Source of the DNA: Polyangiaceae bacterium | Lineage (GTDB): Bacteria; Myxococcota_A; Polyangia; Polyangiales; Polyangiaceae | Reading direction: 5' to 3' | Assembly (NCBI GenBank): GCA_025937785.1 | Contig: JAICQQ010000001.1 | Location: 1-64,000 of the forward strand | DNA length: 64,000 bases | Shown here: positions 4,898-6,737 of the stretch, in pieces | How positions within the stretch are numbered: position 1 is the stretch's first letter | How the letters are laid out: the number at the start of each line of letters is the position of its first letter | Program-made: the position numbers and the translations under genes | Notes under the pieces: model-generated | What the model was told of the DNA's origin: nothing | Database searches by the model: none | Seen by the model: the letters and a program-made list of their open reading frames with translations, nothing else

Positions 4898-4964
4898 CTA
4901 GCACACGCGGAGCCGTGGGGGACTACTGGCATTTTCCCCGCAAGTGGGTACGTTCCACGCTTCG

Positions 4965-5717
4965 ATGTCGTCCGCGAGTGAAGCGCCCCCCGCCACAGCC
5001 TGGAAGGAAGCCAGCGGCCCGTGGACGGATCTCGGACTCACCCTTCCCATCTTCGTGGGCTATCACCTGGGCGTCGTCCTGCTCCCCGTGCGCAACGCCG
5101 CAGATCTCGTCACCTTCGAGCTCATCACGCTGGCGAACAACAACATGTTCGCCTACAGCGCGCTCACTCTAGCCATCGCCGCGGTCTACGTCGGCGTACT
5201 CTGGGTCGCCGGACGCGGGCGCGCTCTCCGCTGGGAGCGCTTCGTGTGGATCGGCATCGAAGGCATCGTCTATGCCTTCACCATGCGCCTGATCGCCGCC
5301 AACGTCGTCGGCAACCTCGGTCTCACGAGCCTCGTCGGCCCGACTGGCGTCCCTCTCGCGCGCGGCATCGACAGCGGCTTCGCCGGCCTGGTCATGTCCT
5401 TCGGCGCCGGCTTCTACGAAGAGGTCATGTTCCGCGTCGTGCTCTTCGGCCTGGGCGCACGCCTGCTCATCTACCTGTTCCCCATCCCCGTTCCGGCCAA
5501 GCGCTTCGTCGTCAAAGTCACTTGGGCCGTCGTCACCGCCGCCATCTTCAGCGGCTGGCACTACGTCGGCCCGATGGGCGACGACTTCGATCTGCTCTCC
5601 TTCGTCTTCCGCTGGGTCTGCGGCATCGTGTTCTGCTTCATCTACTGGTTCCGAGGCTTCGCCCCCGCCGTCTGGACCCACGCCCTCTACGACGTCTGGG
5701 TGCTCGTGCTCAACTAG
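4965..5717 (+). CDS. CPBP family intramembrane metalloprotease
   Basis: Multi-TM; FYEEVMFRVVLFG, FSGWHYVGP, HALYDVWV motifs. Confidence 0.8.
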   Translation: MSSASEAPPATAWKEASGPWTDLGLTLPIFVGYHLGVVLLPVRNAADLVTFELITLANNNMFAYSALTLAIAAVYVGVLWVAGRGRALRWERFVWIGIEGIVYAFTMRLIAANVVGNLGLTSLVGPTGVPLARGIDSGFAGLVMSFGAGFYEEVMFRVVLFGLGARLLIYLFPIPVPAKRFVVKVTWAVVTAAIFSGWHYVGPMGDDFDLLSFVFRWVCGIVFCFIYWFRGFAPAVWTHALYDVWVLVLN

Positions 5718-5767
5718 CCTGTCCCTGAATGGGCCGGCCCATGAACGTGACGTGCCCCTGCCCGTGC

Positions 5768-5883
5768 CGAGAAATCGAGGAAAGGGCTGTCCGCCTCGCG
5801 GTAGCCTTCGATGATCGCGCTCGCGATGCCGAGAAACTCCAGTGCGACTCGATACACTTCCAATCCCTCATATCGAGCATCAT
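5768..5883 (-). pseudogene. Truncated, frameshifted four-helix-bundle (23S rRNA IVP/avd-like) protein remnant
   Basis: Minus strand reads RYEGLEVYRVALEFLGIASAIIEGYREADSPFLDF, matching the N-terminal 'ye.LeVYrvalefl' signature of the family; the ATG at 5880 is 1 nt out of frame. Confidence 0.55.
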
Positions 5884-5922
5884 GCTCCGGTCATCGTCAT
5901 CTTGGTATCGGTTGCACTGCTT

Positions 5923-5955
5923 CGGGCACGGGCACGTTTACGTTCACGTTTACGG
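5923..5955. repeat. Hexamer tandem repeat (GGGCAC GGGCAC GTTTAC GTTCAC GTTTAC)
   Basis: Direct reading of the sequence. Confidence 0.8.
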
Positions 5956-5984
5956 GGTCGTTCAGCCGAATTCAGGGGCAGGGC

Positions 5985-6737
5985 CTAGCCACCCCGGCGT
6001 GCCAACACGAAGTGCTCGAGGTTGCCCTTCGGGCCTTTGATGGGCGAGGGGCATTCGCCGACGATCTCGAAGCCATGGTTTCGAACCGCTGCGAGGGTCT
6101 GGGCAATCGCCGTCTCGCGCAGCGCCTCGTCCTTGATGACCCCGCGGTGCTTGCTCGCCTGCTCGCGCCCCACCTCGAACTGCGGCTTCACCAACGCCAA
6201 CAAATGCCCGCCCGGCTTCAAGATCTTCCCGATCGCCTCCAGCAGCTTCTCCAAGCTAATGAACGACGCGTCCACCACCACCAGATCGACCAGCTTCCCC
6301 AGGCTATCCGCCTCGAGGTGGCGCGCGTTCGTGCGCTCCATCACCACCACCCGCGCATCCCCGCGCAACGACTGCGCCAGCTGCCCATGGCCGACATCGA
6401 TAGCGAAGACCTGCACAGCTCCCCGCTGCAGCAGGCAATCGGTAAAGCCGCCAGTCGAAGCACCAACGTCCGCCGCGACCACGCCAGCGACATCGAAGCC
6501 CAGTGCCGTCAAGGCACCGTCGAGCTTCGTCCCCCCTCGCGAAACGAACTGCTCCGTCTGGCGCACCGTCAGCACGGCATCGCTCGAAAGCAGGGAACCG
6601 GCTTTGTCGACGCGCTGCTCGCCCACGTACACTCGCCCCGCCAAGATCAGCGCCTGCGCCTTCGCGCGCGAGTCTGCGAGCCCCTGTGCGAGCAAGAGTC
6701 GGTCAGCGCGATCGCGTTTGGGTGAAGCCGGAGACAT
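5985..6737 (-). CDS. tlyA: TlyA family RNA methyltransferase (S4 + FtsJ domains)
   Basis: RADRLLLAQGLADSRAKAQALILAGRVYVGEQRVDKAG (S4); VVAADVGASTGGFTDCLLQRGA..VFAIDVGHGQL. Confidence 0.92.
   Translation of the reverse strand: MSPASPKRDRADRLLLAQGLADSRAKAQALILAGRVYVGEQRVDKAGSLLSSDAVLTVRQTEQFVSRGGTKLDGALTALGFDVAGVVAADVGASTGGFTDCLLQRGAVQVFAIDVGHGQLAQSLRGDARVVVMERTNARHLEADSLGKLVDLVVVDASFISLEKLLEAIGKILKPGGHLLALVKPQFEVGREQASKHRGVIKDEALRETAIAQTLAAVRNHGFEIVGECPSPIKGPKGNLEHFVLARRGG

Follow-up and report, generated by a model that had tools for sequence, protein, structure and literature searches.

A block between the convergent stop codons of a CPBP-protease-like gene and tlyA is very probably a miniature derivative of an IVP-carrying IS5-family insertion sequence

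The block that fills the gap between a CPBP-protease-like gene and tlyA in a Polyangiaceae genome is very probably a MITE, i.e., an internally deleted, non-autonomous derivative of an insertion sequence (IS) of the IS5 family (IS427-like), which is about 1.37 kb long and carries an IVP gene. This assignment is based on terminal repeats of the IS5 type, on the CTAG target and on a convergent DDE transposase, which is the most likely mover of the element. Sequence comparison supports the derivation by shared ends, intermediates, full-length relatives, the copy number, the CTAG ends and an empty junction in relatives. The window, i.e., the whole stretch of 64,000 nucleotides (64 kb), contains this copy of the element, and further copies were analyzed in the genome, its relatives and GTDB MAGs.

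The block occupies the whole gap between the stop of the CPBP-protease-like gene (4944-5717, plus strand; TAG at 5715-5717) and the stop of tlyA (5985-6737, minus strand; cta at 5985-5987, complementary to the stop TAG). Both genes have their native length, and their names are those of the first-pass annotation, which had described an inverted-repeat block of about 268 bp between the two stops. The block was indeed found, but its extent was corrected to 275 bp, from the left CTAG target copy (5714-5717) to the right one (5985-5988). The terminal inverted repeat (TIR) at the transposase-side end (5718-5730, CCTGTCCCTGAAT) lacks two G's of the consensus (GGGCCTGTCCCTGAATT or CTAGGGCCTGTCCCTGAATT), and the TIR at the IVP-side end spans 5969-5984 (reverse complement GCCCTGCCCCTGAATT). 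The outer repeats pair at 5718-5730/5970-5982 (13 nt, 92%). Further inside, inverted pairs at 5738-5750/5944-5956 (13 nt, 85%) and 5750-5764/5923-5937 (15 nt, 93%) lie in the subterminal inverted arms of the transposase side (5738-5768, with GTGAAC/GTGCCC-type short repeats) and of the IVP side (5923-5956). As had been predicted, RNA folding joined the outer and inner pairs into one long stem. The folding energy was -129.8 kcal/mol for the plus strand, compared with -96.1 (sd 5.1) for 200 dinucleotide shuffles (z -6.65), and -115.0 kcal/mol for the minus strand (z -3.67); none of the 200 shuffles folded as well as the element. An Rfam search of positions 5500-6300 yielded no match.

Between the arms, a leader remnant upstream of the lost transposase gene (5769-5792; the transposase would read on the plus strand) is followed by the first third of an IVP (four-helix-bundle) gene as a frameshifted pseudogene (5793-5883, minus strand). 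Longer copies are 84-85% identical to positions 5717-5792 at their transposase-side end, and the alignment breaks at 5792/5793 (between query positions 195 and 197). What the window copy has retained is the IVP-side end up to 5793 and, from 5792 on, the end of the transposase side; the last two thirds of the IVP gene and the transposase gene are deleted. The reading frame of the IVP-like peptide is shifted by one base from that of the ATG at 5883, in agreement with the truncated, shifted minus-strand ORF of the first-pass annotation. The remnant itself has no family match in Pfam (only a chance BPS match at 0.12), and thus its identity was taken from the alignment to longer relatives, in which the same region of the full IVP is 45% identical (E 3.5e-5). 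Longer copies (412 bp, C120:89717-90128; C446) read on into FTRASLSIVLNIAEGAGKHSKPDKRRYYLTARGSATE, which matches PF05635, and the complete IVP protein encoded on contig C14 matches TIGR02436 at 3.7e-19 and PF05635 at 1.7e-20. Full-length and 412-bp copies pass the profile cut-off of the IVP/S23 four-helix-bundle family (PF05635, TIGR02436), so that the resemblance to proteins encoded by rRNA intervening sequences (IVSs) was confirmed via the relatives. The nearest solved structure is 2GSC (E 1.2e-13), a homopentamer of four-helix bundles (PMC4990558).

The long relatives of the block are IS5-family ISs (NF033580; DUF4096 plus DDE; two ORFs) of about 1.37 kb with a full IVP gene. On contig C14 of the same genome, the full IVP gene is joined to a convergent IS5-type transposase gene. 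Six further loci have this convergent pair (L105, L079, L081, L110, L139, L140); relatives (G037, G065, G095, G010) as well as GTDB MAGs contain it in variously decayed form. CTAG and a TIR are present at both ends of two elements of full length, one of 1373 bp in a Labilithrix MAG (L140/L330) and one of 1368 bp in a Polyangiaceae MAG (L139/L331). Their layout is CTAG, GGCGTGTCCCTGAACG, (CCCGTG)n, the IVP gene, the convergent ORFB/ORFA, (CACGGG)n, TIR and CTAG, with slight differences between the ends. In both, the IVP gene is intact and the transposase frame is damaged. Among the copies in the genome, the relatives and the GTDB MAGs, none of full length had a transposase that was clearly intact, and we therefore only infer mobility.

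The transposase matches NF033580 with its C-terminal part (E 1.9e-41) and its N-terminal part (E 2.8e-32), as well as PF13340 and PF01609. In L139, L140 and G011, a run of G's marks the junction of ORFA and ORFB, where a frameshift is predicted, and the two ORFs overlap similarly in G032. IVP-less ISs with the same ends and a transposase that is 63-70% identical are 844 bp (G032, a complete genome) and 831 bp (G011) long. Members of the IS427 group of the IS5 family have a core of about 0.83-0.87 kb, a TIR of 13-21 bp, a 2-bp (or CTAG) duplication and two overlapping ORFs with a frameshift motif (PMC3281130, PMC9241763), and the two IVP-less relatives fit this description. The IVP-carrying parent likewise has a DDE transposase, two overlapping ORFs with a frameshift run, TIRs and a TA/YTAR target duplication; it differs by the extra IVP gene convergent to the transposase and by the inverted short-repeat arms, which belong to its length of about 1.37 kb. 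The window element shows the features of a MITE, i.e., the ends of the parent, no transposase gene and many copies, while copies of the parent were found with damaged transposase frames. Contig C1 of G032 carries four copies of the IVP-less IS of about 844 bp (881773, 3438385, 3486470, 10778754; L325), and in the copy examined the terminal repeat includes the stop codon of the transposase. Contigs C173, C189, C4 and C306 of the genome under study (L056, L057, L059, L063) encode another family of IS5-type transposases, which is 45-48% identical to the IVP-linked one, in the N-terminal part where covered.

The IVP gene of the IS-linked clade is under purifying selection: dN/dS was 0.08-0.26 for seven members of the clade (six IS-linked ones and L083), with synonymous sites nearly saturated in several pairs. 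In the tree, the IS-linked IVPs form one clade (support 98/91) that also includes the transposase-free L083 and a copy at a contig end (L091), and the clade is nested inside a large tree of stand-alone IVPs. This single supported clade that includes L083 suggests that the IVP was captured once by the IS and that the association was later lost. A tblastn search for the IVP in plasmids gave no match. A contig labelled as a Klebsiella pneumoniae MAG (L142, CAMASI010000012) encodes an IVP that is 64% identical to a Polyangia IVP; the contig is possibly misbinned or mislabelled.

The first-pass annotation had proposed a non-autonomous relic of a mobile element, and the dispersal of the element bears this out. 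The terminal repeat (TAGGGCCTGTCCCTGAATT, at most 3 mismatches) had 92 matches in the genome, compared with 0 for the reversed control, and a DNA search revealed about 50 copies, the best of which were 79-87% identical. Many of them lie at contig ends, and so do most element ends in this assembly (9.39 Mb, 501 contigs, contamination 8.6). The genome has at least 45 copies of this dead miniature element, the window block included. Of twelve pairs of ends that were listed, one (1311 bp) is a spurious pairing; complete copies are about 258-496 bp long and include deletions and remnants, and intermediate copies have kept more of the IVP gene or the start of the transposase gene. Among the 55 ends for which 110 inner bases were available, 27 had a neighbour at 98% or more, so that part of the amplification is recent; the window copy, with a value of 0.86, is old. 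Among 108 genomes of the family, 15 contain the terminal repeat, which is abundant in a few (81, 31, 28 and 21 ends), and the control was nearly silent. Several element ends (outer flanks of L061, L205 and L212) are preceded by a near-identical flank (AACGCTTTCCTAG-like), which suggests insertion into another dispersed repeat.

Most complete copies have TIRs and CTAG on both sides, and about 95 element ends were flanked by CTAG in 68 cases and by TTAG in 7 cases. The target duplication may comprise 2 bp (TA) or 4 bp (CTAG); for one pair flanked by CTAG/CTAA (L012), a duplication of TA is the better fit. CTAG is rarer than expected in the window (44 versus 203 expected). The TAG of the element ends was the in-frame stop of a coding-like ORF in 17 of 76 cases (strict) or 24 of 76 cases (relaxed), whereas the controls gave 0 for shifted frames and 0/86 for other CTAG sides in the window. 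Only two coding-like ORFs of the window have CTAG stops, both at the element. Another copy (L028) also lies between convergent genes, and both flanking ORFs end in CTAG. The target of IS5 is Py-T-A-Pu, mostly CTAG (PMC5493358), and the overlaps of 4 nt between convergent stops are CTAA, TTAA, CTAG and TTAG (PMC2174442). The IS5-type YTAR target is the same set of tetramers, and therefore insertion with target duplication keeps both stops. A CTAG target that coincides with stop codons explains the window site better than insertion at a terminator, which had been suggested previously.

A comparison with 30 relatives of the same family, rather than of the same species, showed that the CPBP-protease-like gene and tlyA are convergent in many of them, and none had the element at this junction. 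The empty junction that was anticipated for a mobile element was thus found. Where the two genes are directly adjacent, their stops are -66 to +253 nt apart. The ancestral window locus would have had a CTAG overlap shared by both stops; the observation that the stops in relatives are mostly apart or overlap differently counts against this. It was also considered that the element created the stops by truncating the genes, but this was rejected, because the genes have their native lengths in relatives (in almost every genome, the TlyA homologue extends to query residues 248-250) and because the C-terminal domains of ten other genes flanking element ends are complete or nearly complete. The insertions have thus not truncated these genes, and neither the CPBP-protease-like gene nor tlyA was harmed.

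The following course of events may be proposed. The parent consists of a TIR, a short-repeat arm, the IVP gene convergent to a two-ORF DDE transposase gene, the inverted arm and the second TIR, and the transposase would have moved copies by acting on the repeats. The target of one copy would have been a CTAG (class YTAR) in which the two stops overlapped, copying of the target would have preserved both, and the window copy would have decayed after insertion. The IVP gene would be a passenger that is kept for the function of its protein in full-length elements, and it may stem from a wider pool of IVP genes within inverted short-repeat arms.

Such a pool is indicated by stand-alone IVP genes. 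At 45 IVP loci without an IS, the adjoining flanks were mutually inverted-complementary, with a median score of 23.5 compared with 9.5 for the control, i.e., flanks 500-900 bp further out at the same locus. The control maximum within the locus was exceeded at 26 of the 45 loci, with related loci not being independent. Stand-alone IVPs in inverted short-repeat arms were found in Myxococcota, Planctomycetota and other phyla.

These loci speak for a different origin, in which a free-standing, IVS-like IVP hairpin has its own, IVP-dependent means of movement and was joined by the IS5 transposase only later. In addition, the IVP gene is intact where the transposase is broken. However, terminal repeats of the IS type are common to the copies of the genome and are mostly flanked by CTAG, and two short MITEs with the same ends, 169 bp without an IVP remnant or short-repeat arms (G049, L329) and 290 bp with nearly all of the IVP lost (G124, L343), have retained repeats and flanks. 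Because these MITEs, which appear to be separate derivatives, have lost all or nearly all of the IVP gene, it cannot define the mobile unit here, and a free-standing element is improbable. Of the IVS-like relic proposed initially, the mobile relic with an IVP remnant thus stands, but instead of a self-moving rRNA-type IVS it would be a MITE of an IS5-family IS. The same junction of IVP and transposase genes recurs in several Polyangia MAGs, and chance nested insertion of a transposase into an IVP element was therefore rejected.

Even less credible is a structural element kept by the host, i.e., a bidirectional terminator or an RNA-stabilising hairpin and not a transposon relic. The very strong fold of both strands and the location between convergent genes, which L028 shares, would be in line with such a function. 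Yet the inverted ends and arms account for the fold, the copies range in length between about 258 and 496 bp and include deletions and remnants, and the junction occurs without the element in relatives. A secondary role as a terminator is compatible with a MITE of the IVP-carrying IS. REP/BIME repeats were rejected, because they are much shorter than the element, which moreover derives from an IS5-type parent.

MITEPsy1, an IS5-type MITE of 100 nt, targets CTAG or YTAA (PMC3189936), and the window element is likewise small, transposase-less, TIR-bounded and CTAG-targeted, but it additionally has the passenger IVP remnant and the short-repeat arms. The 23S rRNA IVSs that encode IVP/S23p (Coxiella, Leptospira; PMC4990558) also combine inverted repeats with an IVP gene (PF05635/TIGR02436), and origins as transposition remnants and mobile elements have been proposed for them (PMC4990558). 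In contrast to them, the window element lies outside rRNA genes, between the CPBP-protease-like gene and tlyA, and is distinguished by the terminal repeats of an IS, by its CTAG target and by its association with a DDE transposase; a search of the genome with RF02541 found no 23S gene in the assembly. Avd of diversity-generating retroelements (cd16375, which resembles PF05635; PMC10053308) connects the IVP fold family with mobile-element machinery, but no reverse transcriptase was noticed beside the IVP genes examined in a search that targeted the transposase only. An IVP passenger in an IS was not found in the open-licence PMC papers searched.

The function of IVPs and the spread of IVP-encoding intervening sequences have been open for decades, with a transposition origin only proposed (PMC4990558). 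The IVP gene described here is a physical part of a DDE-transposase element and is conserved as a protein, which makes the question testable by transposition. Furthermore, the identity of the YTAR target with the stop-overlap tetramers offers a simple reason for a high copy number without gene breakage. A more speculative view, which we hold only tentatively, is that IVP genes outside rRNA are widespread hairpin mobile elements with short-tandem-repeat arms, that the IVP aids movement, e.g., by binding the arms or single-stranded ends, and that one of them fused with an IS5-family IS in Polyangia, the YTAR target of which allowed harmless insertion at gene tails. The arm sequences of stand-alone IVPs vary (CGTACT in Planctomycetota; CCCGCT, CCCGTG, GTCGTG and others). 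At several planctomycetal loci (L158, L161, L165, L168, L179 and others) the stand-alone IVP lies between conserved inverted arms (TCGTACTCGTACTCAGTG..ACGGTACTCGTACTCG), and these loci apparently make up another large family, distinct from the one described here, of hairpin elements with an IVP.
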